Positions 2,930-51,872 of a DNA stretch of 64,000 bases are shown in pieces. Position 1 is the first letter of the stretch. The number at the start of each line of letters is the position of its first letter. The notes beneath the pieces were generated by a model that did no database searches, was not told the origin of the DNA, and saw only the letters and a program-made list of their open reading frames with translations. Both the position numbers and the translations under genes were made by a program. This DNA is from Sipunculus nudus (Eukaryota; Annelida; Sipuncula; Golfingiida; Sipunculidae), in contig CM049308.1 in NCBI GenBank assembly GCA_026874595.1, positions 52,339,624-52,403,623 on the forward strand, given 5' to 3'.

Positions 2930-3580
2930 TGGGAGAACTGAAAAAAAAATACAACACACTAGTGAAAAATAATATAATCACTTAAAATATCAAAAAAAAA
3001 CTTAAGGCTTTATCAACAATAACAGAAGGGGTAACTAAAGAACGCAAACCCTTTTGTTCCAAGATTAATAGATAATATGATAATTTCTGTATTTTTCAAA
3101 TGAACAAGATATTTGTCAGGGTCTTCAAGTATCTTGTCAAATGTCGGACCAGAATAGCCATCGAAGTTGACCTTACTGCTGCTTGGAAGCCCAAGCTGGT
3201 GGCTTACTTGTCTCTTGACACTTTGACATTTACTGAAGGCCCTTTTAGCAAAAGGCCCTTTCAAAGTGATGACGAACCACGTTCGACTCCTTCCTATATA
3301 TCTGTCAATATTTTAGTGGACGCCCTCAAATAGAAATGATTCAAATTGTTCCTAATCAGATTGGAGCTCTTCTGCTTGCCTGTTTAAACAAAATGTAACA
3401 AACACGGGTACTCGTGCACTCGCCAATAGAGTCACGCTGGTGATATACTCAAGGGGGCACCCATTTATTATTTTAATACCCACATTAAACTTATTTAGGA
3501 AGACAAGCCTTTGTCAAGTCTTTGATATGAAAGTTAAATAGTAACCGTTTATTAATCATGAGTATTGACAAAAGTTTTTT
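2930..3580 (-). repeat. Right arm of the ~3.4-kb foldback element
   Basis: This is the reverse-complement partner of 225-896. The outer edge lies near 3580 (AAAAAC-like end, ATTAATAAACGG block at about 3545-3560) and the inner edge near 2930. No clean target-site duplication was found at the outer edges; on the left the flank is the repeat A unit. Confidence 0.85.
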
Positions 3581-4154: not shown

Positions 4155-5385
4155 AAAGCTACTGCCAATATATATATATTATTTTTATTATTATTATTAT
4201 TATTATTTGACAGTTTCGTTGTTGATCTTCACAAATAAAGCAGTCTATTTTCAGTAAATAAATATTTTACTTAAACTTAATGCTGTGGAAGAAAGCAGAA
4301 TATATGTATAATATGGACGCTATCTCTTTAGTAAATGCATACTCCTTTTTCAGCATGCATTTTCTCGTTTTTAGTTTTTTATGGTGTTTATTCCACACTG
4401 TAATACATTCTTGCGCCATTTTCAGATACAGTGAAATAAAATTTTACTTGAAGTTGTATACAAAGTGCATTTTATACTTCTGATTACTATACAATTGTTT
4501 GTTCCTGCTGATCATAACGTGTAGTGTCTTACACAGAATACAAATGTTTTTTTTTATAATATGTATGCTCATAATAAAATACTGTTACTTTTAAGTTAAT
4601 ATATTTTACTTCCTATAAGTGCTTTATGACCAGCTGCTGTTATATGTGTACAATACACACCCATATACACTGAATATTAAATGGGCACACCATATTCATG
4701 TGTGTACCTTTGATTTATCAAATACCTTTCATCCATTAATAAACAGCTCATGCTTACTTGGTGTTTTATGCATTAAGAGTTTGGGCGTGTGTTTCTAGGG
4801 AAAAATTAAATATATGTAGTCAATATGAAGCATATTAGGGCAGTTTCCTAGGAACATATAAAATAATGACTGCATAAATCGTTAAAATACCATGCATCAA
4901 ATATAGAATTTGGTGTTAAACATTCAAAGCCTTTGATTTTAATATGTCAATGTAGTCATACAAATTAAAGTATATTATATCTTTCAGATTCAACATTCAT
5001 TGAAATAACTTAAACAGAAGAAAGGGGTGGGGGACCCTGGCTGCCATTCCGTTTGATAGAGATATGTGTCAAGCAATGGTTCTACTTTATTAAAGTAGAA
5101 ACATATTTTTATAATATGCGTGTAAAAGGTGTTATATATTTCCCTCAAGTGTTACTTAATCATCGATACTTCCACTGATCCACTACCTGCCGATTTTTTT
5201 TTCTATTTTGACAAATTAGATTAAAACGACAAGAGTATGCCATTTAAATGTATCTAATTAATTAATTAGACTAAATTATTTTGAACAAAGAACAAACTGA
5301 TCGAATGAAAGGCTGAAAAAAATCACTTTTATATATTTCAATTTTGTTGCATGGCCCATGATTGTTGTTTAGATGATGTTGCAAT
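4155..5385 (+). repeat. 1.2-kb dispersed repeat, copy 1
   Basis: This segment is colinear with 36505-37637 on the same strand. Strong anchors are the TTCACAAATAA block (4229), ACACACCCATATACACTGA (4656) followed by ATTAAATGGGCACACCATAT, ATTTATCAAATACCTTTC (4714) and the GGACCCTGGCTGCCA block (5031). Both copies begin next to an AT microsatellite after GCTACTGC. No terminal repeats or coding motif were found, so the class is unknown. Confidence 0.8.
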
Positions 5386-5757
5386 GAAGCTTTTTGCTTC
5401 AATGAAGCTTTAGCTTGAAGATGTTAATTTCATAGCATGTATGCATATAAATTTCGATGTATTCTGACTGTAATTCAATGAAGATCGTATCTTGTCCGAA
5501 CATTATACAGCATTATTACATGGGCCTTGAACTGGCCGATAGGAATTTAGCTAATATTATGTAAAAAAGGTCAGGGTCCAAATCTGCATATCGACTTGCT
5601 GCGTGTAATATTGACCAGGCCCTATAGTGTAATATGATTACACACGGATGCTTCATTTTACACACCGAAGGCAAAGTTCATTCGATTTTCTACTTCCAGA
5701 TTACATTTATATGGACTTACAAAAACAATAGCACCTACAAGAGGACTATAGTACTAG

Positions 5758-5990
5758 CCGACATGACTACGCGGGCATCCAGGAAAGCAAATGGCAAACA
5801 TGGCAAGTGGGCATTCGACGGCATCAAGGTTGCCCTGGCAGCTGTTAGAGAAATAAAGCTAGGGCCAAACAGAACAGACTTAAAGTATCCCACCAGCCAC
5901 ATTGCTGAGGCACCTCGACAATACAAATAAATATGCCACCGAAGGAAGAAAGCATCTGGGACGACACTGTGACCTTCCCGAAGATATCAG
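5758..5990 (+). pseudogene. pogo-type transposase N-terminus (psq HTH) fragment
   Basis: The frame starting at the ATG at 5764 reads MTTRASRKANGKHGKW then FDGIKVALAAVREIKLG, which is the layout of a psq-type helix-turn-helix at the N-terminus of pogo/Tigger-like transposases and related domesticated proteins. That domain binds the transposon ends. About 55 codons in, the frame closes, but the next bases in another frame give NKYATEGRKHLG and LPEDIS, the usual continuation in this family, so there is at least one frameshift. The catalytic DDE domain is not visible downstream; a poly-G run and a long (AT)n tract follow. The assignment to pogo-like is from recognition of the pattern, not from a search. 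Confidence 0.6.
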
Positions 5991-6051
5991 CGGCTAAGCT
6001 AAATATACTTGGGAGGGGGGGGGGCACTATTTGTTTGGTATATCGGCTATA

Positions 6052-6054
<3 letters not shown>

Positions 6055-6106
<52 letters not shown>
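6055..6106. repeat. (AT)n microsatellite
   Basis: An uninterrupted TA dinucleotide run of about 50 bases, directly after a poly-G run near 6014-6024. Confidence 0.95.
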
Positions 6107-6108
<2 letters not shown>

Positions 6109-6120
6109 AATGTACGCACA

Positions 6121-6254
6121 TAGGGTGGTTGATATAGGGAGGGGGTTGTCTACAGCCCTGTACATGAGAATATACTAACTGCACATGGAAGTATACCGGT
6201 ATTGCTAATGTTTTTCCATTATATATATATATATAGTATTGCTAATGTTTTTCC

Positions 6255-6290
<36 letters not shown>

Positions 6291-6725
6291 AATATATGTA
6301 ACTATTTATCTTACAGTATATACATATGTATTTATATATATATATATAACATATACACATATACATACACACATGTATATAATGTAGGCACATATTGGGT
6401 TGATATGGGGAGGGGGTAGTCCATTAGGCCTGTACAGGAGAAAATACTACACATTGAGGAATACCGGTACTCCTTATGTTTTCCATGATATACACACACA
6501 CACATATACATATACATATATATATATATACAGATGTATACATATATATACTGTTACATACATATAAATATATATACATGTATATACATATATATATATA
6601 TATTATTTATACACACACACACGTACACCCTCACACACACATATATGGGTTCTTATGGGGAGGGGGTAGTCAAATTACAGTCCTGTACAGGTTAATATAC
6701 TAACTGCACATTGAGGAATAAATAA
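6121..6725. repeat. Minisatellite, ~260-bp period with (TA)n spacers
   Basis: Three copies of a ~100-bp block (GGTTGATATRGGGAGGGGGT, then CCTGTACA, then GAATATACTAACTGCACAT and TACCGGTA) begin near 6126, 6396 and 6646, separated by AT and CA-rich microsatellite. A partial extra copy of GTATTGCTAATGTTTTTCC occurs at 6236. Apparent reading frames here are runs of Y, I and T from the dinucleotides. Confidence 0.85.
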
Positions 6726-6790
6726 GAAAACATGTTTGTCTTTTATGTTAGGTGCATGTTCTTCTTCAGGCATTTAGGTAAATAAGAGTG

Positions 6791-7140
6791 TAAGGCCAAA
6801 AAAAATAAAATGTATGTTTCTCAGGCACCGCCCGCATCAATTTTAAACCCCCGCACCAAAAATTTTTATTTTGATTTTCCAAAGTAAGTTACCAATTTTG
6901 AGCTACATCCGCTCGTACGTTTTTTTCAAGAAGATAAAATCATACACTTTCCTTTGTTTTATAGTACTTTTACTTGTTTAGCAAAATAAATCTGTTATTA
7001 TCATGCTTTTCCCTTATCATTTAACATTTTTATCGAAACATACCAACAAATTAAAAATAAAAAAAAAAAACGCCCGCCCACATTGATTTCTGAAAAAAAA
7101 GTACCTGAGAACCATACCTTTTTTTTTTATTTTGGCCTAA
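6791..7140. mobile_element. 350-bp MITE-like inverted repeat element
   Basis: The left end TAAGGCCAAAAAAAATAAAA followed by a TTTCTCAGGCAC segment is mirrored at the right end (7104-7140), which reads in reverse TTAGGCCAAAATAAAA followed by GGTTCTCAGGTAC. The next segment (CCGCCCGCAT at ~6827 and its mirror near 7072) is also inverted. The arms are about 40-50 bases with small gaps. There is no coding content. The superfamily cannot be assigned; a TA or TAA duplication is possible. Confidence 0.6.
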
Positions 7141-7584
7141 AAATAACTTTTTACTTTTGGAAGTGGATTTTAACTTGAATTTAAAATGTTGACTTAACTG
7201 CAGGGTTGTGTTCGGTCTCGTTTACTTTTTGCCTCCAAGCTGTATTTCCAGTGAATATTATCGATATGTGTGTTTAAAACTCTTTTTCTTCCATGATAAA
7301 TTGGAGATCATGCTTGGACTTATGCTTAAATATATGTTCTTCTTCATTATTGGTCAAATAAGAGAATAAAATAATATTTCTGCTTTTTAAGTAGATATTA
7401 ACTTTGATAAAATATGTTTAGGTAATGGTCAAAATTACACATTTGGGTGGTCGATATTACATTCAGAATGTGTAATATGGACCAGAATTAATTATTTTTT
7501 TGTTACTCGCATTAAAGTCGGTAATTCTAATTTTGCAAGTCTACCTTCACAGTAAAGTGTTCATGTATCAGGTTCCTCAATAAA

Positions 7585-19059: not shown

Positions 19060-21100
19060 AAAACATAGTATCTGCAAAACTTCGTTTATGTGGATACAAA
19101 AATACAGGTGGCTCCACCAGTCTGCAGAAACTAATAAAAACACTTAATGGTCAATATCCATGCAAAGAATCATGGTGATCTCTGCATTACTTGTTCAGAT
19201 ACTTCAGCTTTTGTATCAAATTGTCCATTATTCTGAGGGATACTTCCGAGTCCTATAGCTTGAAGGATATGGGTAACAGAGACCTAATTTCAAGTTTCCA
19301 CAGGCACTCTTCATGGGCCTCCTTGTATGACAAGAATGAAGTTTCTAGGTCCAGTTGTTACAATTTGTACCCTGTTGACAGATAACCACATCTTTAAAGG
19401 TCTCAAAAAAAGAAAAAAAAATTCGTAAAAATTTGAAAAAAATAGAGGTGGCGCACCCAGTCTGAAGAAACTGATGGAACAGCTCATGATCCATATGTAT
19501 GCCGAAAATCATGACCATCAGTGTTGTAGTTATTGAGATATTGATGATTTTGTATGAAATTTTTGACTACTCTGGGGGTACTTTGGGGCCCCATAGCTCT
19601 AGGGTTGGGTAACAAAGACCTAATTTCTGGTTTCCATTGAGACTTTTCATAGGTCTCTCAGTGTTTCGAGAATGAAGATTCTAGGTCCAGTTGTTACGAT
19701 TTGTGCCACGCTAACAGATGATAGCATCCTTAAAGGTCTCAAAAATAGAGGAAAAAAATCGTTAAAAAAGCCGAACAAATACAGGTTGTGTCACCAGTCT
19801 GCAAGAACTGATGAAACACCTCTTAATCAATATGTATGCCAAAAATCATGACCATCAGTGATGTAGTTATTGAGATATTAAAGTTTTTGTATGAAATTTT
19901 TGACTACTCTGGGGGGTATATTTGGGGCCCCATATCTCGATGGATATGGGTAACAGAGACCTAATTTCTGGTTTCCATGGAGACTTTTTAAAGGTCTCTC
20001 AGTGTGTCAAGAATGAAGATTCTAGATGCAGTCGTTACGATTTATGCGACGTTAACAGATGACAGCATCCTTAAAGATCTCAAAAATAGAGGAAGAAATC
20101 GTAAAAAAATCAAACAATAAAGGTGGCGCCACCAGTTTGCAGGAACTGATTATACATCTCATGATCAATATGTATGCCGAATATTATGACCATCAGTGAT
20201 GTAGTTATTGAGATATTGAAGTTTTTGTATGAAATTTTTGACTACTCTGGGGGGGGGGTACTTTGGGGCCCCATAGCTCAAAGGATATGGTTAACAGAGA
20301 CCTAATTTCTGGTTTCCAAGGATATTTTTCATGGACCTCTCAGTGTGTCAAGAATTAAGATTCTAGGTCCAGTCTTTACGATTTGTGCCTTGTTAACAGA
20401 TGTTCACATTTTGAAAGGTCTCAAAAATAGAGAAAAAAATTCGTAAAAAATTGAACAATACAGGTGGCGCCACCAGTCTGCAGGAAGTGATGGAACATCT
20501 CATGATCAATATGTATGCCAAAAATCATGACCATCAGTCAAGTATTTAATGAGATATTGAAGTTTTTGCATTAAATTTTTTACTTTTCTGGGGGGTACTT
20601 TGGGGCCCCATAGCTGCAAGGATATGGGTAACAGAGACTTAATTTCTGGTTTCCATGGAGACTTTTCATAGGTCTCTCAGTGTGTCGAGAATGAAGATTC
20701 TAGGTCCAGTCGTTACGATTTGTGCCTTGTTAACAGATGTTCACATTTTTAAAGGTATTAAAAATAGAGAAAAAAAATCGTAAAAAATCGAAAAATACAG
20801 GTGGCGCCACCAGTCCTCAGGAAGTGATGGAACATCTCATGATCAATATGTATGCAAAAAATCATGACCATCAGTCAAGTAGTTAATGAGATATTGAAGT
20901 TTTTGTATGAAATTTTTTACTTTTCTGGGGGGTACTTTGGGGCCCCATAGCTGGAAGGATATGGGTAACAGAGACCTAATTTCTGGTTTCCAAGGAGATT
21001 TTTTATTGACCTCTCAGAATGTAAAGTTACAAGATTCTAAGTCCAGCGGTTACGATTTGTGCCAGGTTAACGGACAGACGGACGACGGACAAAGAGTGAT
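19060..21100. repeat. Internal array 2, six ~340-bp units
   Basis: Unit landmarks ACAGGTGGCGCCACCAGTCT or variants occur near 19103, 19446, 19782, 20121, 20461 and 20799 (spacings 336-343). Each unit continues with ATCAATATGTATGCC, ATCATGACCATCAGT, GAAGTTTTTGTATG, a poly-G run and TTTGGGGCCCCATAGCT. The last three units are most alike, which suggests recent unit amplification at the 3' side. Confidence 0.9.
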
Positions 21101-27111: not shown

Positions 27112-28759
27112 CATGCATTGGTTGTTCAGATTCTGGAGCTTTTGTAACAAATTTTCCATTATCCTGGGGGGGGGGGGGGGTAATTACAAGTCCAATAGCT
27201 TGGACAATATGGGTAAAAGAGACCTAATTTCAGGTTTCTATGGAGACTTTTCATGGGTCTCCCTATGCATCAAGAATGAAGATTCTAGGTCCAATTGTTA
27301 TGAATTGTGCCCGGTAAACAGATGTTCATATCTTTAATGGTCTCAAAAATGGAGAAAAAAATCGTAAAAAACCCAAACAAATACAGGTGGTGCCACCAGT
27401 CTGCAAAAACTGATTAAACACTCCATGATCAATATCCATGCAAACAATTATGGTGATCTCTGCATTAGTTGTTCAGATACTTTAGCTTTTGTATCAAATG
27501 TTCCATTATTCCGAGCTGTACTTTAGAGTGCCATAGCTCAAATGATATGGGTAACAGAGACCTAATTTCAGGTGTCCATGGAGACTTTTCATGGGTCTCC
27601 CTGTGTGTCAAGAATAAAGATTCTAGGTCAAGTCATTACAATTTGTACCCTGTTGACAGATAACTACATCCTCAAAGGTCTCATAAATAGAGAAAAAAAA
27701 AAATTGTAAAAAATTGAAAAAATACAGGTGGCACCACCAGTCTGCAGGAAATGATGGAACACCTCTTGATCAATATGTATGCCAAAAATCATGACCATCT
27801 GTATTGTAGTTATTGAGATGTTGCAGTTTTTTTTAATCAAATTTTCCATTATTCTGGGGAGGGGGGGTAATTGGGAGCCCCACAGCTCAAATGATATGGG
27901 TAACAGAGACCTTATTTCAGGTTTCCATGGAGAGTTTTCATAGGTCTCTCACTGTGTCAAGAATGAAGATTCTAGGTCCAGTCTTAACGATTTGTGCCCT
28001 GTTAACAGATGTCCACATTTTTAAAGACCTCAAAAACAGAGAAAACAATTCGTAAAGAATCGAAAAATACAGGTGGCGCCACCAGTCTGCAGAAACTGAT
28101 GAAACCTCTCATGATCAATATGTATGCCAATAATCATGACCATCATTGATGTAGTTAATGAGATACTGAAGTTTTTGTATGAAATTTTTCACTATTCTGG
28201 GGGGGTACTTTGGGGCCCCATAGCTCAAAGGATCTGGGTAACAGAGACCTAATTTCTGGTTTCCATGGAGACTTTTTAAAGGTCTCTCACTGTGTCAAGA
28301 ATGAAGATTCTAGGTCCAGTCTTTACGATTTGTGCCCCGTTAACAGTTGTTCACATTTTTAAAGGTCTCAAAAATAGAGAAAAAAAATCGTAAAAATCTA
28401 AAAATACAGGTGGCGCCACCAGTCTGCAGGAACTGATGGAACATCTCATGATAAATATGTATGCCAAAATTCATGACCATCAGTGATGTAGTTAATGAGA
28501 TATTAAAGTTTTTGTATGAAATTTTTGACTATTCTGGGGGATACTTTGGGGCCCAATAGCTCAAAGGATATGGGTAACAGAGACTTAATTTCTGGTTTCC
28601 TAGGAGATTTTTCATTGACCTCTCAGAATGTAAAGTTACAAGATTCTAAGTCCAGCGATTACGATTTGTGCCAGGTTAACGGACAGACGGACGGACAGAC
28701 GGACGACGGACAAAGAGTGATCGCTATAGCTCAGCATGACTGAAAGTCAGCTGAGCTAA
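27112..28759 (+). mobile_element. HINE-like element, 5'-truncated copy
   Basis: The 3' end (28727-28759) has the same hairpin as the complete copy, ending GCTGAGCTAA, and is preceded by (GGACAGAC)-type short repeats and AAAGAGTGATCGCTATAGCT. Four tandem units start near 27385, 27726, 28069 and 28407 (340-bp spacing). Upstream the homology starts mid-unit near 27112 with TTGTTCAGATTCTGGAGC; no 5' terminal palindrome was found. The truncated 5' side lies 270 bases beyond the LINE. Confidence 0.8.
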
Positions 28760-30855: not shown

Positions 30856-30862
30856 ATAAGAG
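30856..30862 (+). repeat. Candidate 7-bp target duplication, left
   Basis: ATAAGAG just before the left arm; the right flank has GTAAGAG at 35509-35515 (6 of 7 identical). Confidence 0.55.
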
Positions 30863-31965
30863 TTAGGCCATGGGCTAGTGGGGGTCATAGTGCACCCCCC
30901 TTGTGATTTACTTTAATAGGTATTTTCATGTAGCCCTAGGTCTAACAATTCAGAAAATTGATGTTGCCACAAAAAAAACTGGGATGGAAGATACCTCCCA
31001 TGGACTTTTTAACCACGCCTACTTTTACAGCTGGAGGCAGATAATTAGGGGTATGGAAAATCCAAACAACCCTAACTTTGCAACTCTTGACCAAAATATT
31101 TCAAATGACCACTTAAAATGTTCGCCTTGTCAAGATCTACCAGTTCATGCAAATGACATGCAAATTTATTTTGCGAAAAGGTCACTAGAGGTCAAAAGGT
31201 CACAAACTTTGACCTTTCCCTATAATTTCTAGTATTATCAGGGTAAATTTATCGCCAAGACCATATAAAGTTGTTTTTAATTGAAAATTAATTAAAATGA
31301 AGGTTTACATGTGCTTTGTAATACCAGGAGTCAAAACGTTTGAAAAGAAGTAGTGATTTCCCTGCGGTGAGCGAGATATTTCTGCACTTTTACAAACTTT
31401 TTGTATGTATTGCTGAATGTGCCAAATAGGAGTAAGGCAAAATCTAACAATGGTACTTTGAAATCTTTCATTGAATCTTTGCAAATGACCATAAAAGATT
31501 ATATTTGTGTGTTCTATAAAATGAAACATAAATTATGCATATATTTTCATCGAAGCGTTTGTTGGAGTCAAAAGTAAGCAAAGGTTGACCTCACCAACAC
31601 CATAGCTGTTTGTTACACAGATTAGTTATGAAGCCTGCCACGAAATTTTAATATTGAAACAAATGTATGTTTCTTTCTTTCTTTCAATTAACACATTTCC
31701 TGTTAACATTCATCCTAATTTTTACCAGTTTGTATCTTATTTTATGACAGTTACATATGTTCTTAGATAGTTGTCACTGGTTCATTGATCTCTGTTAACA
31801 AAAAATCCCTAATTTTAATTTGACTAGTAACAGCCAATGTATTATTTGTTGCATAAATACATGTACCCTTATATCACATATATCAATTTCTATTACTAGT
31901 GGAAAATATATTAGTTATTATAATTAATATAATAATTAATAATTAATTCTCTCAATAAATAGAGG
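30863..31965 (+). repeat. Left arm of the composite foldback
   Basis: Inverted copy of about 34395-35508. A 66-residue frame (from 30909, MIYFNRYFHVALGLTIQKID then VATKKTGMEDTSHG) is identical to one on the minus strand at 35268-35468; since the bases are also identical this reflects DNA identity, not protein selection. After about 31100 the arms diverge (single-base gaps, substitutions, TTCTTTC repeat length). The arm ends in an AT-rich ATTAATTCTCT segment near 31960. Confidence 0.9.
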
Positions 31966-32029
31966 ACCTGGTTTTGTGACACAAAAAAGATATATGTCTC
32001 CCCTCACTACGGGCCTCACTTTCCCAAAT

Positions 32030-32990
32030 TTGAGGGAAAAATGGACCCCTTCAAAAGTTTGGTGTTAACTTAAATCCTGCATTTCTAAAGATTTAACCTT
32101 GTATGATGATGATCAAGGTGACCAAGTTATGATCTGATCTGAGATTTTATTTTTTATTCTGGTTGATTTAACCTTGAAGATTCAGTTCAAGGTCACAGTT
32201 ATCAAGCTCCTCAAGAAACTCTATTAATAAATAGTGTTTCAAATTTGAGGGAAAATATGTGATACTTCAAAAGGTATCGGATTCACAATTTTTTTTATTT
32301 CATCCAATATAACCTTGATGATGAAGGTCAAGGTCACCAGATTTTTAACTGGTCCGAGATACAGGTAGAGACATTTCACAAGTTGAATTTCATGAAAATA
32401 TATCAAGTGATTAAAAAGTTATAGCATTCAAAATAATTTCTGTTCTTGCTGATTTGACCTTGAATATCCAGATCAAGGTCACCAGTGATCGAGCTATTCA
32501 AGGGACTTAATTAAATCACTGGTGTTTCAAATTTGAGGAAAAAATATGCGCTACTTCTAAAGTTATCGGGTTCACAAATAATTCTATTTCAGCCTATTTG
32601 ACCATGATGTTGAAGGTCAAGGTCACCAGTTTTCGAACTTGTCCGAGATTTTGGCAGAGACATTCCACAAGTCAAATTCCATGAAAATATATTGGGTGGT
32701 TCAAAAGTAATAATGTTCACAAATACTTTCTATTCTGTCTGATTTGACCTTGAAGATCCAGGTCAAGGTCACCAGGTTTCAAGCTCTTTAAGGAACTTGA
32801 TTTAAACAATAAGTGTTTCAAATTTTAGGAAAAAAATATACAATACTTCAAAATTATTGGGGATAATGAAGGATAAGGTCACCGGTTTTTGAACTCCTAC
32901 GAGATTTTGGTAGAAACAATTTAAATTTTGAATTTCAGGAAAAAATTATTGAGTCGTTCAAATGTTATCACATTCACAAAATATGACACA
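32030..32990. repeat. Tandem array with TCAAGGTCACC, ~145/290-bp units
   Basis: Blocks with AAGGTCAAGGTCACCAG or CAGGTCAAGGTCACCAG recur near 32187, 32323, 32468, 32610, 32759 and 32870 (about 145 bases apart). Alternate blocks share GTGTTTCAAATTTGAGG and TTCCATGAAAATAT, giving a full unit near 290 bp. It fills the left part of the foldback core. Confidence 0.85.
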
Positions 32991-33199
32991 GACGATGACG
33001 ATAGTATGATAATTGTGATAACTGATTAAAATTGCAATTTTAGAAATAAAGCAATCTTTATATTTATGGCCCAGGGAATAAGCTCACCAAAGTGTGACTC
33101 CTGAGATAATTAATCTTATGCTGATAGCAGAACGTTCTTAAGAGGGGATGTGTTACAGGTTCACATAAAAGCAAACCGAACTGTCTCGCTAGTGAAGCT

Positions 33200-33275
33200 T
33201 ACTTTTCTAGCGAAGCGATTGGAACGCCGGGCATGTGCCCCACCGACATGGGTTAGAATCCCGGATCGGTCCAGA
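33200..33275 (+). repeat. tRNA-like (SINE head-like) module
   Basis: TAGCGAAGCGATTGG (33208-33222) fits a pol III A box and GGTTAGAATCC (33251-33261) fits a B box with one mismatch to GGTTCGANTCC. A GGG-TTAGAAT-CCC T-arm-like hairpin and a GGGCA-TG-TGCCC hairpin lie between and around them. There is no proper acceptor stem and no gene-like tRNA fold, so a tRNA-derived SINE fragment is the likeliest reading. Confidence 0.4.
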
Positions 33276-33331
33276 ATTTTCCCCTAAAAAATTGTCTTCG
33301 TAACAGTATTCGAGCAACTGCATAGTCCATT

Positions 33332-33964
33332 GAAAAATACAGAAACACTGCCTGTGGGGTTGCCAGTCAGTCAGGCTACCATGGATAGTCAGTAGATAGT
33401 CAGAAGGGACAGTCAGATAAACCTACACAGATTTTTCAGGCAGTCACTGATATCTGATTTGATTTTGACTAGCAATTTCCACCACCTGGCTATGACTCTA
33501 GATGTTCATCTGTCATGGTCTTTCTGACTGACCTGCTCTCTAAAGGCCAGCCTGTATTTCATTATTTATCTGGTGTGTTGTCTCCTAGACGATTAGTAAG
33601 CTAGTTCTCTGGAAGGATATATACCTGATAGTCAGACTGATGACTAAAGCTCTGGCTCTAGCATGCATGTATCGTTGAACAAAGGGGACACCGTCTTGTT
33701 GATTACCAGTCTGGTAGTCAGAAAATAACTGACCACCTGTCGACCAGAAACATTGGTATAAAGACAACTGGACTACCAGTGTTGGCTAATTTATCAAACA
33801 GACTGAAAACCGCTAGAGCTATAGTCATCAACCTGACTATCAGGCAAATATCCTCCCAGAGATATAGCTGGTCTGACTGTCGTATCTGACTATCTACTGA
33901 CTATGTGTGATAATCTGACTTACTACCAATCCAAATGGCAGTGTTTCTGTATTTTTATGGACTA
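33332..33964. mobile_element. Nested ~630-bp palindromic element
   Basis: The ends CCATTGAAAAATACAGAAAC (33332) and its inverse near 33933-33962 are reverse complements apart from two changes. Inner segments also pair: GTCAGTAGATAGTCAGA (33389) with the inverse at 33885-33905, and GGATATATACCTGATAGTCAG (33617-33637) with about 33830-33852. The left side has ~175 extra bases, so one arm gained or lost sequence. The composition is dominated by AGTCAG/CTGACT words. No coding content. Confidence 0.75.
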
Positions 33965-34394
33965 TTCAGTGGTTCGATTACTAAAAACACAAACTGTCTG
34001 TCAGTCAGACATTTAGTCAGAGAGATAGACATTAACTCAAACAGGAAGTATGATGTACCACAGGAGAGAGAGTCATTTGATCAGAGTCAAAATGAGAAAC
34101 AGGTGTACCGGTTAGATAGTAAGCCAGCCTGTTAGAGAGTTTTTTCGTTCAAGATGATAGTCAATAGACATGACATGCGAACGAATAGACTTACAGACAG
34201 TCATATGTAAAAAGAATGACTGACAGAGGTCCATATATAAAATAAACTAGACTACCAAAGTCGCCAAAATGCACGGAGGCAGGCCATTAATGTATAAGTA
34301 TAAAAAATGGCTTCATTAATAAAACTGCAATCTTTAATCAATTATCACAATTATTATACTTTGACAAACTCAGTAATATATCCAGGTGAGATAT
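33965..34394. other. Foldback core, GTCAGA-rich
   Basis: A continuation of CAGTCAGAC-rich sequence to about 34235, then AT-rich DNA to the right arm. A 66-codon frame at 33935-34135 follows the repeats. Nothing recognised. Confidence 0.5.
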
Positions 34395-35508
34395 AATATT
34401 AATCATATGTAATTAATTAGAGAATTAATTATCAATTATAATATGAATTATAATAACTTATATATTGTATACTAGTGATAGAAATGGATATATGTGATAT
34501 AAGCGTATTTTCCACCCCCCTCCCCCCCAATAATATTTTGGCTGTTACTAGTCAAATTAAAATAAGGGTTTTGCTGTTAACAGAGATTAATGAACCAGTG
34601 ACAAATATCTAAGAACATATAACTGTCATGATATATGATACAAACCGGTAAGAATTAGCATGAATGTTAACTGGAAATGTGTTCATTGAAAGAAAGAAAG
34701 TAACATACATTTGTTTCAAAATTAAAATTTCATGGGACGCCTTATATTGACCATGTGTAACAAACAGCTATGGTGTTGGTGAGGTCACTCTTTGTTTACT
34801 TTTGACTCCAACAAACGCTTCGATGAAAATATTTGCATAATTTAAGTTTCATTTTATAGTAACACACAAATATAACCTTTTGTGGTCATTTGCACAGATT
34901 CAATGAACGATTTCAAAGTACCATTGTTAGATTTTGCCTACTCCTATTCGACACATCCAGCAATACATACAAGAAGTATGTAAAAGTGCAGAAATATCTT
35001 ACAAACCGCGGGGTAATCACTACTTCTTTTCAAACTTTTTGACTCCAAGTATTACAAAGCACATGTAAACCTTCATTTAATTTATCATTAATAAAGAATA
35101 AACTTTATATGGTCTTGGCGATAAATAAACCCTGATAATGCGAGAAATTATAGGTAAAGGTCAAAGTTTGTGACCTTTTGACCTCTATTGACCTTTCACA
35201 AAATAAATTTGAATATCATTTGCATGAACTGGTAGATCTTGACAAGGAAAACATTTTAAGTGGTCATTTAAATATTTTGGTCAAGAGTTGCAAAGTTAGG
35301 GTTGTTTGGATTTTCCATACCCCTAATTATCTGCCTCCAGCTGTAAAAGTAGGCGTGGTTAAAAAGTCCATGGGAGGTATCTTCCATCCCAGTTTTTTTT
35401 GTGGCAACATCAATTTTCTGAATTGTTAGACCTAGGGCTACATGAAAATACCTATTAAAGTAAATCACAAGGGGGGTGCACTATGACCCCCACTAGCCCA
35501 TGGCCTAA
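34395..35508 (-). repeat. Right arm of the composite foldback
   Basis: Reverse complement of the left arm. It differs from the left by a C/G run insertion near 34514-34528 in its inner half and by scattered substitutions inward of about 35270; outward of that it is identical. Confidence 0.9.
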
Positions 35509-35515
35509 GTAAGAG

Positions 35516-41807: not shown

Positions 41808-42918
41808 TCGCCAGACAAAGTCTGGAGATACTATGGTTTAGGCACGGTTGCGCCGCCGCCGCCGCAGAGATTTCTTTTGGACACAATAACTCAAAAAATA
41901 TTTCAAGGATCTTTTTCAAACTTGACACATTTATAGATGTAGGTGAGAGGACGAAGCCTATTTAAAATGGGGTCATGACCTCAACTAGGAGAGTGACCTT
42001 GACCTTGAATAAATCCATTTTTGGGGAAAATCACACAAATTCTTAAATATCTCAAGAAATCTTTCATGGATTTATCCAAAAATCAAGTTGGACAAAGATC
42101 TTGGATAGTGATGTCATGTACCGGAAACTGGTGGTGCCACCTAGTATCCTTTTCTTGTTTTTGTGCCGTTTAATACCCCGATCATTGCCACTTGACAGTA
42201 CTTTTAGCATCACAAGTCAAAAACTGATTGACAGATTTCTTTAATATTATGCATGTACATAGGTATGGGTTATGAGATGATGTATATTAAAATTGGGGTC
42301 ATGACCTTTCCTTTGAGAGTGGCTTTGACCTTGAATATTACCATATATGGTGAAAATCACATAAAATCATGAATATCTTAAAAAGGGATGCATGGATTGG
42401 TCCAAAAATCAAGTTGATCTTGGATAGTTTTGTCTTTTGCAGAAGATAGGTGGCGCCACCTGTTGTCCTTTTCTTGTTTTTTTGCGCCTTTGAATACCCC
42501 ATCATTGCCACTTGACAGTATATACTGTGAGCATTATAAGTCAAACAGTAATGGACAGATTTCTTTCATGTTATGCAGGTATATAGATATGGTTTATGGA
42601 ATGAGGTATATTTAATTTTAAATTTAATTTTAAAATTTAATTTAATTTAAATTATTTTTTTTAAATTTAATTTTTTTTTCAAATGTTGGATATTTTGGAA
42701 TGCAGTTTATTGATTTTGGGTCATGACCGTGACTATGAGAGTTACCTTGACCTTGAATATTCCCATATTTGGTGAAAAACATAAAATCATGAATATCTTA
42801 AAAAGGGCCACTTGACAGCACTGTGAGCATTATAAGTCAAAAACTAATGGACAGATTTCTTTTATATTATGCATATACTGGCGATACTATGGCACCAGCG
42901 GTGCCAAGAAATGTCTAG
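41808..42918 (+). mobile_element. Non-autonomous Helitron, 1.1 kb
   Basis: It starts with TCGCCAGACAAAGTCTGG (the 15-bp CCAGACAAAGTCTGG is a hairpin) directly after an A, and ends with CTAG (42915-42918) directly before a T. A perfect 3' hairpin GGCACCAGCGGTGCC (42891-42905) lies 9 bases before the CTAG. TC start, CTRR end, hairpin just upstream and insertion between A and T are the defining features of Helitrons. The core has three diverged 300-420-bp units (GGGGTCATGACC then GACCTTGAATA near 41970, 42294 and 42718). No RepHel protein is encoded, so it depends on a partner for movement. Confidence 0.85.
42891..42918 (+). terminator. Helitron 3' terminus: hairpin plus CTAG
   Basis: GGCACC-AGC-GGTGCC stem-loop, nine bases, then CTAG followed by T. 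The spacing matches the known Helitron 3' signal. Confidence 0.85.
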
Positions 42919-43470: not shown

Positions 43471-44227
43471 CTGTCCATGTTTTTCGGATATCGAAAATTT
43501 ACAAGTTTATGTATCTCAGCAACCGTTTGATGAAATTTAATGTGTGATACATGAAAATGTCGGTCTTGAATAGCTCTATCAAACTAGGCTATTTTCCAAA
43601 CCCCATTTATAATATGAAAATTTGCTAAATTTTACCTGCTGTGTTAAATGAGTTACCATCTTGGTTCACAAGGACATGAAAACAAGTCATTTTTCGCCCC
43701 GGGGCATAACATTTTGGCTTGGTGGCCATCTTACAAGTCGCAATGGGTGTTCGCGTTCATGTGAACACAAGTTTTGTAATATGAAATGTTTGTAGGATTC
43801 ATTGTTACACTTATCCTCATGCAAGCTTACAGAGTAATCACATCACTGATTTTCTCTTTCATGAATCAGCCATGAAAACTTGGGAAAGGACATGAAATTC
43901 ACTTCAAGTAAATTGCTGATATAACCGGACAAGATTTTTGGAGGATTCATATAATAATGCAGTCTGGTTTCTGTATCGGGGAAATGTCTTGCATACTTTT
44001 ACAAGCACTCATCCTTGATCTCGATGCTTTCACAACTCACCAGCAATCGATCCTGATGCTCTCAACAATTAACAGAGTAATAACTGCATGTATATTAATA
44101 TTAATCAATTTATTCTGAAAAGATAACTACATTTAACACAATTTTGTGTATACAATGTAATGAGGTTGATGAAGTCAGAGAAATAAAATTTACATTTGGA
44201 TAAATATATTTTTCTTGACCATAACTG
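43471..44227. other. Nothing recognised
   Basis: AT-rich sequence with phrases typical of decayed element bodies (CAGCAACCGTTTGATGAAAT at 43519). Nothing reads as a gene. Confidence 0.4.
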
Positions 44228-44632
44228 ATCTGGTACTTAGCACCGCCATGGTGTCTTTCCCAAATGTCAACACAAAGAACAAACCATACAAAATAATAAA
44301 ACAAATCATATAATTTACTTAAATGATTTGGTACTTAGCACTGCCATAGCGTCTTTCCCAAATGTCAACATAAAGAAATAAAAATTATACTGACTTAAAT
44401 GATTTGGTACTTAGCACCACCACAGTCTTTCCCAAATGTCAACATAAAGAACCAAAAAAATCATACTGACTTAAATGATTTGGTACTTAGCACCACCACA
44501 GTGTCTTTCCCAAATGTCAACATAAAGAACCAAAAAAATCATACTGGCTCAAATGATTTGGTACTAAGCACCACCACAGTGTCTTTCCCAAATGTCAACA
44601 TAAAGAACAAAAATAAATAAAACAAATGATAT
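44228..44632. repeat. Minisatellite, ~78-bp units
   Basis: TTTGGTACTTAGCACC..CA..GTCTTTCCCAAATGTCAACA recurs near 44228, 44327, 44401, 44479 and 44557 (spacings 99, 74, 78, 78). Later units are most alike. It lies about 250 bases beyond the 3' end of the transposase-like gene. Confidence 0.9.
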
Positions 44633-44876
44633 GTACATCAAAATCATTTGGAAATAAGCATCACTGCATAAAATAATTAAAAATGATTACATGATGACAG
44701 GACTATCAGGGTAACAACACAAAAGCCTTTCATAATATAATGGGACCAACATATTGTTAATAAATTCATATCAGGCCATCTGACAAAGTTACAATCAGAT
44801 TATATAATATATTAAAAAGTGAAGTCCATATTCCTTAAACAAAATTCATAACATTAAGCTTGTCTTATTAACATTA

Positions 44877-45623
44877 TTAACATCCCCCTGATAAGAGACA
44901 CGTACACAACCACTGCCAAAACACACGCAAATCACCAGACATATAATCATCAAACAAACTGAACCTCCACTCCCCATCCCCATCCTCATCCTCTTCCTCA
45001 CTCTCCTCATATAAAACAACAAACTCGGGACTCTTACCACCTTTCTTACCAACAACATCCAGCACTCTGCCCTTCCACCAACTTTCACATCCATCATCCA
45101 CAAACCTCTGCTCAACATTCATTCCAACTAAATCTGAACTCACCAAACTCACCAAACGTAAAACACCACATTTCAAACCATTCACTAAATCACATTCAAA
45201 CGATTCACCACCAACATTCTTCAAAACCCCAACAAACAACCGCTCACTCCCAACACATTCTTTCATCTCATTCACACAACATCTCTCCCATTCAGACTCA
45301 TTCAATCTTTCAATCACCTTCCCCAGAAAATCATCCACACAGTGAATAAAAGGCAAATCTCGCTTACACATTCTCCTACCTTCATTCACACTCTCATTCT
45401 CAGCCACTGTCAAAAACTTCTCTTTCTCATCATCAAGCTCACTATCAGGCACACACACACACCAGTAAACGAAACATCTGCACTCTTCACATTCTCGCGA
45501 TCCAGCCTTCTTCAAATTCACCACAAGCTCATCATACGTATACATACGACCTCCCTTGCTGAAATTCAGACATCCATCCACATTCACACACTTCAGCACA
45601 TATTTTCGAAAACGCATTTGCAC
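44877..45623 (-). CDS. C-terminal segment with Tudor-like domain
   Basis: A 248-codon segment with a Cys-rich patch (CEECRCFVYWCVCVPDSE, 45-62) and, at 167-235, GMNVEQRFVDDGCESWWKGR then VLDV, FVVLYEESEEEDEDGDGEWR and FSLFDDYMSGDLRV. The pattern (basic-aromatic WWKGRV, VLYE with an acidic loop, then F.L..DY..GDL) fits the small Tudor/SAWADEE-like beta-barrels found at the end of this protein family; such folds often read methylated lysine or arginine. The reading role is inferred. The final codons (WQWLCTCLLSGGC) precede an AT-rich flank and the 78-bp minisatellite. Confidence 0.6.
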   Translation of the reverse strand: MQMRFRKYVLKCVNVDGCLNFSKGGRMYTYDELVVNLKKAGSRECEECRCFVYWCVCVPDSELDDEKEKFLTVAENESVNEGRRMCKRDLPFIHCVDDFLGKVIERLNESEWERCCVNEMKECVGSERLFVGVLKNVGGESFECDLVNGLKCGVLRLVSLVSSDLVGMNVEQRFVDDGCESWWKGRVLDVVGKKGGKSPEFVVLYEESEEEDEDGDGEWRFSLFDDYMSGDLRVFWQWLCTCLLSGGC

Positions 45624-46087
45624 CTCAACCGCACGTCCCTTCTGTCAACCATGCATTCACACAACCTTTCATCCACCTCTCTCTCACTCATCCACAACCC
45701 CCTGAACTCATTCAACTCCACAGTCAAATCATCTGCTTTCACTCTGTCACGCGTCTCCTTTCTCTCCTGCACACACCGTTTCTCCCTCATTCACTCCGCT
45801 CTTCTTGCACCCACAACCGCTCTCCTCTTCCGAAACTCGCTCACCTGCTCTTTCACACTACGCCTCGCTCGCTCTACATGCTCTCTCAACTGATCATCAC
45901 CCATACTCCGCAGCCAACCCCGGGTATCATTCCTTCGAAACATAATGACACCCTCCATTGCACACGTACTTGCGTTCGGTCTTTCACGCATCAGGTAATC
46001 AAGCATACCAAAATCTCTTTCACACCTTACATTCGTCATGGGCACACTGGCAGTCTCACTCATTCTCTCACTCAGATCAGCATTCAC
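45593..46087 (-). CDS. ERDFGMLD segment with an internal stop
   Basis: 45791-46087 reads MSETASVPMTNVRCERDFGM followed by LDYLMRERPNASTCAMEGVI, a block that in the family precedes a basic, likely DNA-contacting stretch (ARRSVKEQVSEFRKRRAVVG). A single TGA at 45791-45793 is followed in the same frame by 45593-45790 (KRCVQERKETRDRVKADDLT), so the stop may be one substitution. Confidence 0.65.
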
Positions 46088-46310
46088 TCCACCTCGTTAC
46101 TGATCTTGAAGCAACTTCTGGGTCTTACTGAAGAAAGATGCCAGAAGCAGCTCCAAGACCTGCTGAGTCATACGATCATTCTCACACTCTTTCACCAAAG
46201 CATCATATACCCAGTCCTTTCTGACATTGACAACCTCATACAAACACTCTGATCCTTTCATCAAACTACTTGCATCCTGAGCCCATGACTGTAAACACAC
46301 CAGTAACCTT

Positions 46311-46781
46311 TCAGACCTGGCATTCAGTCCACTCGTGCGTCTCACTCTCAATCACTCTCCACAACGGCCCAGTCAGCAACTTGTCGATCAGCCCCAAAGC
46401 ACGCACTCCACACACAAACTGCTCCACACCCAGGTCAGCATGCAACGCTTTCATCAACAGGTTCTCATCTTTCACGTACTCAAAAAACTCGCACAAGGGG
46501 TAAAGAGCATATACCCCTGCACCATTATGGAACAGTATATTAAATCTGTTCCCTCTGAATGGTGCAAGGGGTATATGCCCCTTCCCATCTCTCACACGCA
46601 TAAACTCACGAAACCACACAGGCTTTCCACTCTTCTCACACCCTCTATCTTGCACAGCCTTGCATACCGTTCTGACCATACGTACAGTTCCACTCTCGCC
46701 CTTCCGACTCTTACATCCTTTCGCAACAGCACCCACCGCACTCTCACCAAATATCAAACTCTCCCACATACACAGAGTCAC
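46311..46781 (-). CDS. Middle segment: FRGNRFNILF motif
   Basis: A 156-codon open segment with KSGKPVWFREFMRV, then PLAPFRGNRFNILFHNGAGV (71-90), MKALHADLGVEQFVCGVRAL (110-129) and GLIDKLLTGPLWRVIES. In the family this block follows the MSDR region directly; the missing link (FCGLHYLVGLAEQAG) is readable just upstream in a neighbouring frame (about 46775-46825). Continued by 46097-46351 (QSWAQDASSLMKGSECLYEV) after one frame change. No intron signals are needed, so it looks like one original exon. Confidence 0.7.
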   Translation of the reverse strand: MTLCMWESLIFGESAVGAVAKGCKSRKGESGTVRMVRTVCKAVQDRGCEKSGKPVWFREFMRVRDGKGHIPLAPFRGNRFNILFHNGAGVYALYPLCEFFEYVKDENLLMKALHADLGVEQFVCGVRALGLIDKLLTGPLWRVIESETHEWTECQV

Positions 46782-46869
46782 ACCGGCCTGCTCAGCTAAA
46801 CCAACAAGGTAGTGCAGGCCACAAAAACAAAATCATTCATTCTTACACATCTCTCACGCTCACTGTCAC

Positions 46870-47706
46870 TCATCCCATTCCATTCATTAACACATGCGGC
46901 AACACATCTCTCCTGTAGTCATACAACAACTCACAAAACTTCTTTCCTGCAGCAGCCCTATCACTCATAGTATTCTTCATACTTACAATCATGCCCTGCA
47001 CACGCGTACACACATCTCCTCCTTTCATGCTAGCCACATCCATCAAAATCTCACGCAGCACACACAACAGGCTTTCAGCATCCCCACTCGCAACATCTCT
47101 CACACCCAGAGTCAGACTCTCACCAGCCGCTGTTCTTACACCCAGACTTTCATAATGACTGCCATACTTTGTCGTTCCATCACTCATCAAAGTCACATTC
47201 CCACTCTCTAAACATTCACTCAACTGCATCCATGCCAGCGCTCTACATTCATACACCATTCTCTCAGCACACGTCTCTCTCGGCAATCTATCCACACTCT
47301 TTCCCAGACCTTCAATCACACATCTCACAATCGACTCACACTTGCTCGCACTCACACCCATACCAATCAGCTCTATATAAACTCCTCTGATCTCACTTGT
47401 ATACATTCCTCCCTGAAAACAACGCACACAGTCACTCCGCACAAAATCTTCCAACCTCTCTTCCAACATACACTTCTCATTCTCCAAATCACGCACTCTC
47501 TCACTCAGGCAAACCAGCTTGTCATTAACACACTCTACACTTTCACAGGCACTCCTCCTATACCAGAGTGCCTTTCTTGAAGCGTCATACTTACTTCTCA
47601 GACATGCGTACCTTTCACACTGTTCATTCACTTCCACACATGCATCCACATACAGGTCATCAAGCTCACTCTCTAGTCTCACACGCTCACCCTCGCATTC
47701 ACTCAA
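46870..47706 (-). CDS. Core segment: coiled coil plus SDGTTK...MSDR
   Basis: A 278-codon open segment. Residues 1-90 are heptad-rich and charged (LESELDDLYVDACVEVNEQC, LENEKCMLEERLEDF). A helical region with LPRETCAERM and ECRALAWMQL follows at 140-165, then LMSDGTTKYGSHYESLGV (173-190), GVRDVASGDAESLLCVLREI (201-220) and MKNTMSDRAAAGKKF (243-257), ending LLYDYRRDVLPHV. This order is characteristic of the family. The D of SDGT and the D of MSDR are candidate catalytic acids of an RNase H-like fold; the third acid is not placed. The frame ends early; the next bases in another frame continue the expected sequence (MSDSERERCVRMND). Confidence 0.7.
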   Translation of the reverse strand: MSECEGERVRLESELDDLYVDACVEVNEQCERYACLRSKYDASRKALWYRRSACESVECVNDKLVCLSERVRDLENEKCMLEERLEDFVRSDCVRCFQGGMYTSEIRGVYIELIGMGVSASKCESIVRCVIEGLGKSVDRLPRETCAERMVYECRALAWMQLSECLESGNVTLMSDGTTKYGSHYESLGVRTAAGESLTLGVRDVASGDAESLLCVLREILMDVASMKGGDVCTRVQGMIVSMKNTMSDRAAAGKKFCELLYDYRRDVLPHVLMNGMG

Positions 47707-48138
47707 CCTGGCCTAAAGTTAAAAAATTTGGCCATCCCTCTCATTCAACTCATCCTTCAACTCTGCAATCATACTATCTCTTCTCGCAAGTTTCTTTCTA
47801 AAGTTTCTCACACACACTCTCCTTTCTTTCACACTTACATCCATCTGCATCTTTCTCACCATCTCAACCAGCTCCTTCTCCCGCTCATACATAACCTCCA
47901 CACCGCTCTCATGACCTGACTCTGCCCCCACCCGACCCTCAAGCTCCCTCCCCCCCCCCCATTCCACTCTGCACACACACTATCCTCACTCCCCTCCATT
48001 CCACTCTGCACACACACACACTATCCCCACTCCCCTCCATTCCACTCTGCACACACACACAATCCCCACTCCCCGGCAAATGAAACACGCCATTCAGAAA
48101 CTCATGCCTCATACCTTTCTTTCGTGCCTTGGTCAACT

Positions 48139-48611
48139 CAAGGGGCGTTCACACCTGTCCGTTCTTTCCTTCCGCACCCGCACCCGCTTCCGTCATCCGT
48201 CAAATTCGAGTCAGTTAAAATTACATAGGGCATTCATACCTATCCGCTTCCGCACCCGTCACACCGTCCGCACAAATCGGTCTGGGACCGATTCACGACG
48301 GAAGCGGACGACGGGTGCGGACGGGAATCCATACTATGACCTAATATAATAGGGGATATTCTGGAATGTCCTTGTGTCTTCTCCTTGATAGCTCCTGGTA
48401 ACACATTATTTGTTATTAGATTAGATTCGATATATATATATATATATATGTGTGAAAGATAATAGTGTATTTTATATAAAACAAAGGCGATGAGTGCGGG
48501 TGCGGATGGAAAAAGCGCGGATAGGTGTGAACAGAGACAACGGATGGCGGACGACGGATGACGGAAGCGGGTGCGGAAGGAAAAAAACGGATAGGTGTGA
48601 ACCCCCCTTCA
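48139..48611. mobile_element. 0.47-kb MITE inside the transposase-like gene
   Basis: The left end AAGGGGCGTTCACACCTGTC followed by CGTTCTTTCC and CGCACCCGC matches the inverse of the right end (GCGGGTGCGGAAGGAAAAAA then CGGATAGGTGTGAACCCCCC, ending at about 48611). Internal copies of GTTCACACC-like and CGCATCCGT-like words extend the arms to 60-80 bases. TCAA occurs on both flanks (48136-48139 and 48612-48615 or one base off), a possible short duplication. The minus-strand coding sequence breaks at its edges (KCKFE on one side, LTKARKKGM on the other), so it inserted into an exon. Confidence 0.75.
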
Positions 48612-49876
48612 AACTTACATTTCCCATACCAGTAATGAAACGCACGCACACTCATCCACAGACTCATATCTCATCAACCTGCCAAGGCACTTCACAACAT
48701 GCAACTCACTCCTACATTCCATCACACACTCTTACACCTCCATCACAAACCCATTCGTCAATTCATTCTCACACACAGAAGAAACCCCCCATCACAAAGA
48801 GAACTTATCAAATTTCTTGATATTCCAAGTTTTTCAGAAAATGGCCCTGGCCAATCATTTCTTCAACTTTGCCCTGCAATTACATAAATAGAAAAAAAAA
48901 TGGTTACTTATTTGACAATCCAAATCTTTGTCATTTTCTTAAGAGCCTGATTTGCTCAAATGGGATAATCGTTTAATTTGGGGGGGGGGGGCACTTTAAA
49001 CAACTATGAATCTTTAAACAATGAAACAATGTTTATTAATATTTCATGCTATGAAATGGTGAAATATGTGTATACCGTTTCACTAACCAAAAATCACCTG
49101 TGACACCTTTGTTAATTGTCAAGACCTATTTGGCAAGCCTACACATGAAAATACATAAAATACTTTGGTTAAAAAAGTCTCATATAGTCTTTGACATAAA
49201 TTGCTGTAACCTGGCACTATTTTTGTGATTAAATTTGATAAAATCCTCTAAATTTAAACCCATTTAAAATATAAAAAAGGCCATCTGAGATCATTGAACA
49301 GGATCCATTTTTTTTTAATTTTTTTTAAGAGAGAAAAGTTCTTCCCCCATTAAAAATTGATACAGAAATACAATATTAATTAATATTCTTATTTTCTACC
49401 CACCCCCACCTCAAAACATTATCTAGCAATATTAATAAATAACTAGAACATTTATTTACCTGTCATCAGTACAAAACAAATGTGAAAGATTTTCTACATT
49501 AACTTGGTTCCAGAATCACAAAGAAAACAATTTTCATTTTCTTAACTTCACAAATTTAAGACATACAATAGACACTTAATGAAAAAAATTATTAACTTGC
49601 AAAAGAAAAGGTGAAAACTTAAACATCCATTCATATTTTATAATTTATAATTTTCCTGAGGGAAAAATGACTAATATATTATGATAGTGAATATCACTTT
49701 TTATCAGCTTAATGAAAACAGGTCCATATCATGTATACAAAGCACCACTTATAACCATGGCATTGCTTTCTCCCCTATTATCGCTCACCAAAACATCACG
49801 CATCCCTTTTATAAATTATATTTTTGTGGCGTTTATAAAACACGCCAGAAAATAAATAAAATTCATTTTATGCAAA
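48612..49876. other. 5' flank of the transposase-like gene; AT-rich
   Basis: 48612-48890 may contain more of its N-terminal coding region on the minus strand, preceded by a possible TTGCAG acceptor (about 48872-48877). Beyond that there is a G run (48980-48990) and AT-rich DNA with nothing recognised. Confidence 0.35.
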
Positions 49877-50859: not shown

Positions 50860-51872
50860 GTGACCAAGGGGTCATGACGCTTAGCTGACTAGGAATACAT
50901 TCACAAAGGGATTTTTATCAATGCCAAATTTTGTAGGTGGTATCCCAATTCAGCTTAAGGGTAGCTCAGAGGATATGGATGACAGAGACCTAATTTCAGA
51001 TTTCCAAGCAGATTTTTCATGGACCTCCCTGGATGTCAAATTAGAAGATTTTAGGTCCAATGGTTACATTTTGTGCCCTGTTAAATGGCACAAATTGTGC
51101 CCTGTTTACAGATGACCATATCTATGAATGTCTATTAAATAGAGGAAAAAATGGGTAAAAATTTGAAGAAAAAAAAATCCAGGTGGCGCCACCAGTCTGC
51201 AGGAACTAATGAAAGACTCCATGATTAATATCCATGCAAAGAATCACGGTGGTCTATGCAATTGTTGTTCAGATACTTGAGCTTTTGTATCAAATTTTCC
51301 ATTATTCTGGGGGATACGTCAGAGCCCCATAGCTCAGAGTATATGCCGAACAGAGACCTAATTTCAAGTTACCACAGATATTTTTCATGGGCCTCCCTGC
51401 ATGTCAAGAGAGAAGATTCTAGGTAGAGTCTTTACGATTTGTGCCCTGATAACTGATGACCGCATCATTTAAGGTCTCAAAAATAGAGAAAAAAATCGTT
51501 AAAAAAATTTTAAAAAAATACAGGTAGCCCAACTAGTCTGCAGAAACTGATGACACACTCCATGATCAATATCTATGGAAAGAATCATGGTGAAGAATGC
51601 ATTAGTTGTTCAGATACTTGAGCTTTTGTATCAGATTTTCCATTATTCTTGCGGGTAATTTGGAGCCCCATAGCTCGAAGAAAAAACATAACAGATACCT
51701 TAATCCTGGTTTATTAGGAGATTTTTCACTGACGTCCCTGGATGTCAAGTAAAAAGATTCCAGGTCTAGTGGTTACGATTTGTGCCCTGTTAACGGACAG
51801 AAGGCCGGAAGGACAACGGACAAAGGGTGATCGCTATAGCTCAGATGACTTAATTACAGTTATCTGCGCTAA
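50860..51872 (+). mobile_element. HINE-like element, two-unit copy
   Basis: The 5' end TAGTGACCAAGGGGTCATGA then CGCTTAGCTGACTA matches the complete copy. Units start near 51180 (AGGTGGCGCCACCAGTCTGC) and 51523 (CAGGTAGCCCAACTAGTCTG). The 3' end has GTGATCGCTATAGCTCAGAT then a decayed hairpin and GCGCTAA (51866-51872). It is more diverged than the copies at 17.7 and 27.1 kb, so it is older. Confidence 0.8.

Follow-up and report, generated by a model that had tools for sequence, protein, structure and literature searches.

A new family of non-autonomous foldback DNA transposons with 3-bp target-site duplications in the Sipunculus nudus genome

The stretch of DNA analysed here (the window) comprises 64,000 nucleotides of Sipunculus nudus (GenBank assembly GCA_026874595.1, contig CM049308.1, C3 below, positions 52,339,624 to 52,403,623 of the forward strand). 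It harbors a foldback element of 4,644 bp at 30864-35507 on the plus strand, which begins with TAGGCC, finishes with GGCCTA and is flanked by the target-site duplication (TSD) AGT on the left (30861-30863) and on the right (35508-35510). The duplications were recognised by comparing flanks across copies, and the limits of the element by comparison with other copies, including the empty sites of three of them. A first-pass annotation, made from the letters alone, had placed the element at 30856-35515; the structure it described is real, but the limits lie slightly further inward on both sides.

The left arm (30864-31961, plus strand) and the right arm (34410-35507, minus strand) align in inverted orientation with 90.2% identity over 1,105 columns. 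At their outer ends, positions 30863-31104 and 35267-35508 are 100% complementary across 242 nt. The first base pair of this match is part of the flanking duplication, leaving 241 identical bp inside the element, in good agreement with the ~1.1-kb arms and identical outermost ~235 bp noted in the first pass. End comparison further delimits a 37-bp terminal signature on the left (30864-30900, plus strand), which is common to another family, and its counterpart at the right end (35471-35507, minus strand). Inward from the left arm, a tandem array (32148-32946) is followed by a short inverted pair (33003-33067 with 34294-34360, from inverted-repeat detection), a stretch holding a tRNA-like module (33150-33320, module limits approximate) and a central inverted repeat (33305-33982), the first three on the plus strand and the last without strand. 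The array has a unit spacing of 141-146 bp with a dimer pattern of ~289 bp and is one-sided, sitting between the left arm and the centre. The central repeat consists of the arms 33305-33417/33872-33982 and 33599-33656/33812-33869. Both the array and this nested palindrome had been noted in the first pass and were detected here. The arms and the core were found again genome-wide, and the recurrence of both indicates that the structure goes beyond chance.

Allowing up to 3 mismatches, a 32-base end pattern gives 97 + 107 = 204 matches in the 1.43-Gb host genome and none for the control, and a search with the outer arm returned 239 candidate places, the best 40 of which were scored. We read 31 copies in all: a first set of 20 loci around the best outer-arm matches, window copy included, and a second set of 11 loci picked for having both ends among the matches listed. 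The 31 copies terminate in TAGGCC/GGCCTA, the exceptions being L037, where the ends are mutated, and one mutated end in L039, so the other copies do not end elsewhere; they share both ends, and the 20-base end first proposed is correct to within one base. The array region is present in all 20 first-set copies at 90-100% identity, in either orientation. Two core types were considered and rejected, as L022 and others represent the same element in reverse orientation. The window element belongs to a new foldback-type family of DNA transposons that is non-autonomous, and the suggestion of such a family in the first pass is borne out by copies that share both ends. A literature search, little of it by end sequence, gave no mention of the family by name.

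An exact 3-bp duplication flanks 29 of the 31 paired copies, the window copy (AGT/AGT) among them. Within the first set, the flanks of 18 of the 20 copies agree at 3 bp; in 5,000 shuffles with re-paired flanks, the mean was 1.9 and the maximum 8. All 11 copies of the second set carry a 3-bp duplication when the outer ends of three composite copies are used; the flanks of the inner pairings of these three do not match. The word ATAAGAG/GTAAGAG, originally read as a 7-bp duplication, had to be abandoned, since none of the 20 first-set copies matches at 5 bp or more, and with a duplication of exactly 3 bp the P-type affinity proposed alongside it falls as well. TA was likewise rejected as target duplication: the 3-bp match lies outside TA, and the empty sites agree. 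Read on the genome plus strand, the duplications of the exact-TSD copies have A or T as third base in 29 of 29 cases and as first base in 24 of 29. This probably reflects a preference for A/T next to the ends, the genome itself being AT-rich.

Three copies landed in repeats, and for this reason relatives of their empty sites exist. The relative of L030 is a neighbouring repeat unit (98.3%, gapless), that of L034 is a unit beside L024 (92.5%, gapless), and for L024 further units match at 81-83%, with small gaps that leave the join untouched. One TSD copy is kept in each case, which fixes the ends and the 3-bp duplication. Alternatively, the arms might be unrelated dispersed repeats inverted by chance, or a segmental inverted duplication. 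Such an origin would fit the many listed end matches that have no partner and the independent occurrence of the tRNA-like module, but 20 first-set copies hold the same arms and core, and 3-bp TSDs accompany 29 of 31 copies, along with the empty sites. Shared architecture with TSDs refutes the chance-inverted-repeat explanation, to which we give hardly any credence.

A scan of 19 of the 31 copies, namely the first set except L023, gave no open frame above 140 codons, although intron-split genes could escape it. When ten window-copy frames were compared with Pfam, all matches stayed below cut-off. As in the first-pass description of the window copy, no transposase was found in these 19 copies. 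The window copy is young, and recent activity of the family is evident: in a tree built from 20 of the 31 copies, which left out 11 composite, inserted, rearranged or diverged ones, it pairs with L021 and has a private branch of 0.2%. Two copies show individual rearrangements. In L023 the left flank and outer left arm are directly duplicated (1036-2692, period 1,656 bp), and L030 contains, as the one copy to do so, an insertion of 2.85 kb at about 4387-7240, the longest open frame of that whole copy being 113 codons.

The tRNA-like module of the window copy displays an A box (33208-33218) and a B box (33251-33261), each with 1 mismatch. The boxes alone are weak evidence, with 3 other A-like sites within the same 250 bases and 4 B-like sites across the window. 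A 31-base piece of the module, however, has 488 + 438 = 926 genome matches (control 0), compared with 204 element ends. The canonical B box GGTTCGAATCC is found in 17 of the 29 module-holding copies, the window copy being one change off. A tRNA gene was rejected, as ARAGORN and Rfam make no tRNA call, and the window-copy module folds no better than its shuffles (z -0.23). The module is a dispersed repeat carried by the foldback family, and the label of a short interspersed nuclear element (SINE) rests on the RNA polymerase III boxes plus dispersal. As L041 and L042 lack it, its capture probably took place after these two had split off.

Five of the 31 copies (L029, L040, L043, L045 and L050) are composite, with a unit of 5.3 kb. 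In each, a complete copy leads into TGT and then into the outer ~0.8 kb of a second right arm; the junction recurs in L026, to which the second arm contributes only 44 bp. Intact arms read ...AAATGTGTTAATTG... at the insertion site and the composites GGCCTA-TGTTAATTG, which points to the insertion of one copy at TGT within the right arm of another. Each of the five composites occupies a site of its own and has its own TSD (ATA, CTA, TAT, ATT and AGT), indicating that the composite unit moved again, with left end and right end from different parents and with the inner right end skipped.

In the aligned arms of 16 copies, the inner parts of left and right arms diverge by about 3-24% depending on the bin, as much within one copy as from copy to copy. 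Over the outer ~240 bp, all arms are alike. Over 29 copies, the left and right outer arms of one copy differ by 2.1% and the arms of different copies by 3.75%; none of 5,000 permutations was as low, and the value also lies below that for left against left arms (3.4%). Three observations argue against a sharp terminal effect. The own arms are also closer in the 245-330 region (5.75% vs 7.2%), the own arm is nearest or tied nearest in just 16 of 58 cases, and subfamily structure contributes to the signal. With moderate confidence, the arm ends seem to have been homogenised repeatedly.

The terminal signature extends beyond this family. Ends sharing TAGGCCATGGGCTA and diverging thereafter gave 34 matches (control 1), some of which are mutated window-type ends. 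Two elements of another kind, L052 (2,543 bp, TSD GAG/GAG) and L053 (5,336 bp, TSD ATT/ATT, own inverted arms of about 670 bp), align with the window element at the ~37-bp ends only. Since this second family, as read in two copies, shares little beyond that end, one transposase probably moves both. A looser end pattern gave 109 + 113 matches (control 0), and most of those listed with letters are TAGTCCATGGGCTAGGAGGGGTCACCGTGCACCCC, which departs from the end of the window element at 5 of 35 positions. These sister TAGTCC ends form 16 pairs from the listed matches, with a median length of 5,642 bp.

Altogether, 56 pairs of ends, of three kinds, were assembled from the listed matches. An autonomous copy between the same ends, as envisaged in the first pass, was looked for and not found among the ends listed. 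A low-copy end type at C2:85908280 was also tried as autonomous copy and rejected, with no open frame above 67 codons in the 1.35 kb read.

PIF/Harbinger elements target TWA, and CACTA/EnSpm elements have CACTA/CACTG termini; the CACTA duplication measures 3 bp. A derivative of Harbinger, CACTA or Zator, moved by such a transposase, would fit the 3-bp duplication of the foldback family, which is also that of Zator (available part of PMC10045372) and falls within the 2 or 3 bp typical of Harbinger (available part of PMC3627910). The target sites and termini speak against such a derivation, as TTA or TAA accounts for 4 of 29 TSDs and the termini are TAGGCC...GGCCTA, not CACTA. None of the 150 scored hits (of 701 candidates) of PF13359 (DDE_Tnp_4, Harbinger) lies inside the 56 listed pairs, a count from which a partner could escape. 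The same is true for the 7 hits of Transposase_21 (PF02992, CACTA) and for the single genome hit of PF07592 (ISAzo13-like, Zator) at C7:75738369. On balance, we consider a derivation from any of these three superfamilies unlikely.

Membership in the Academ superfamily, in which TSDs measure 3-4 bp, is a doubtful but conceivable alternative. The median of the 16 listed TAGTCC pairs is comparable with the length of Academ elements, which are amplified in bivalves and long (mean 5,565 bp) according to the available part of PMC10294476.

A candidate for the carrier enzyme is a DUF6589 protein inside a 12.7-kb TAGTCC pair (C3:52476334-52489027), 73 kb past the right end of the window, with the match at C3:52481001-52481558. 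It is the one hit of 26 for PF20231 (DUF6589) that lies inside the 56 listed pairs; the chance of one such hit is 0.5% if hits are even, and about 2% after four families tried. The other 25 hits fall outside the listed pairs, the match is weak (27.9 bits vs a cut-off of 27, in an open frame of 321 aa), and one end of the pair is a 2-mismatch match. The pair is moreover the longest of its 16, so the DUF6589 gene may be a nested insertion, and the family was one of our own choosing; DUF6589 is not mentioned in the literature searched. That this protein is the carrier seems improbable to us, and we treat it as a weak lead only. In a bolder reading, the shared ends TAGKCCATGGGCTA...GTGCAYCCCC and the free 3-bp duplication might mark an undescribed superfamily or lineage, with an enzyme, perhaps DUF6589, that moves several foldback families, and with nested end-swapping that makes the composites. 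We regard this combination as quite improbable.

With its long inverted ends, the window element is very probably a non-autonomous DNA transposon that is mobilised in trans via its ~37-bp signature and creates a 3-bp duplication. This reading follows from the fixed ends, the 3-bp TSD, the empty sites, the many copies, the lack of coding found and the presence of the ends on a second family. Several observations weigh against it. No transposase was seen inside any copy scanned, and no excision footprint or polymorphism was seen. The truncated composite L026 lacks a TSD where its ends were placed, and L037, with its mutated ends, shows CAGT/CAGT in the frame used. Some copies depart from the common layout: the tandem array is missing from L046, and the more diverged L041 and L042 are without the tRNA-like module and have different inner inverted repeats. 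Selection of the 31 copies favours complete ones, with the unpaired listed ends outside the sample.

Mechanistically, a transposase acting in trans would recognise the ~37-bp signature (TAGGCCATGGGCTA...GTGCACCCCC) and join the element to a staggered target cut, whereby 3 bp are duplicated. We infer cut-and-paste movement by a DDE-type enzyme from a related family. Pairing of the arms would be a by-product of palindrome growth and homogenisation and no requirement. The family offers a readable series of events, with SINE capture, a satellite-like core, likely end homogenisation, nested insertion and movement with mixed ends. Long palindromic elements may accordingly grow by addition of modules while the working part remains the ~37-bp ends, and the ends point to an enzyme probably common to several high-copy families.

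Elsewhere in the window, a further inverted pair (573-745 / 3082-3254; 173 nt, 91% complementary, 2.3 kb apart) is possibly a second inverted-repeat element. Related ~338-bp tandem repeats occur in dispersed arrays at 19100-21071, 27207-28680 and about 50962-51811. Diverged repeats at 41888-42871 resemble the flank repeats of copies L026 and L034, and a strong GC skew of about -0.4 to -0.56 extends across ~5 kb at 44001-49000.

FB elements have long inverted ends with tandem repeats, and the TSDs of FB and Galileo are longer than 3 bp; the Galileo transposase is P-type, and TSDs in the P/Galileo superfamily measure 7-8 bp, a length at variance with the 0 of 20 window-family copies that match at 5 bp or more. 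The likeness to FB, Tetris and Galileo lies in the very long arms (1.1 kb at 90%), and the difference in the tandem repeats, which are not within the arms of the window element. The 3-bp duplication is a likeness to Academ, with no transposase link to the window family shown. Pearl-type elements lack kilobase inverted arms, which sets the window family apart from them. It resembles tandem-repeat miniature inverted-repeat transposable elements and the pearl-type elements of bivalves in being non-autonomous with internal repeats, which in those elements are like satellite monomers (available part of PMC5139131). Zator shares the 3-bp duplication (available part of PMC10045372), again without a transposase link shown, and both Academ and Zator are restricted to bivalves among the molluscs surveyed in the accessible part of PMC10294476. 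Galileo has long inverted ends. Its tandem repeats and its transposase, which carries a THAP domain, are mentioned in the portion of PMC4079207 at hand.

The same portion of PMC4079207 describes the foldback element Tetris of Drosophila virilis, whose terminal inverted repeats (TIRs) reach 1,735 bp and which has tandem repeats inside, no conserved open reading frames, ends common to DAIBAM and no autonomous copy found. The window family is like Tetris in all these respects: long TIRs, tandem repeats, no conserved open reading frames, ends shared with another family and an autonomous copy not found. As far as that portion goes, Tetris differs in its TSDs of 8-10 bp, compared with 3 bp here, and in its ~220-bp repeats inside the TIRs, whereas the array of the window element is confined to one side of the core; and, unlike Tetris as described there, the window family carries a SINE-like module.

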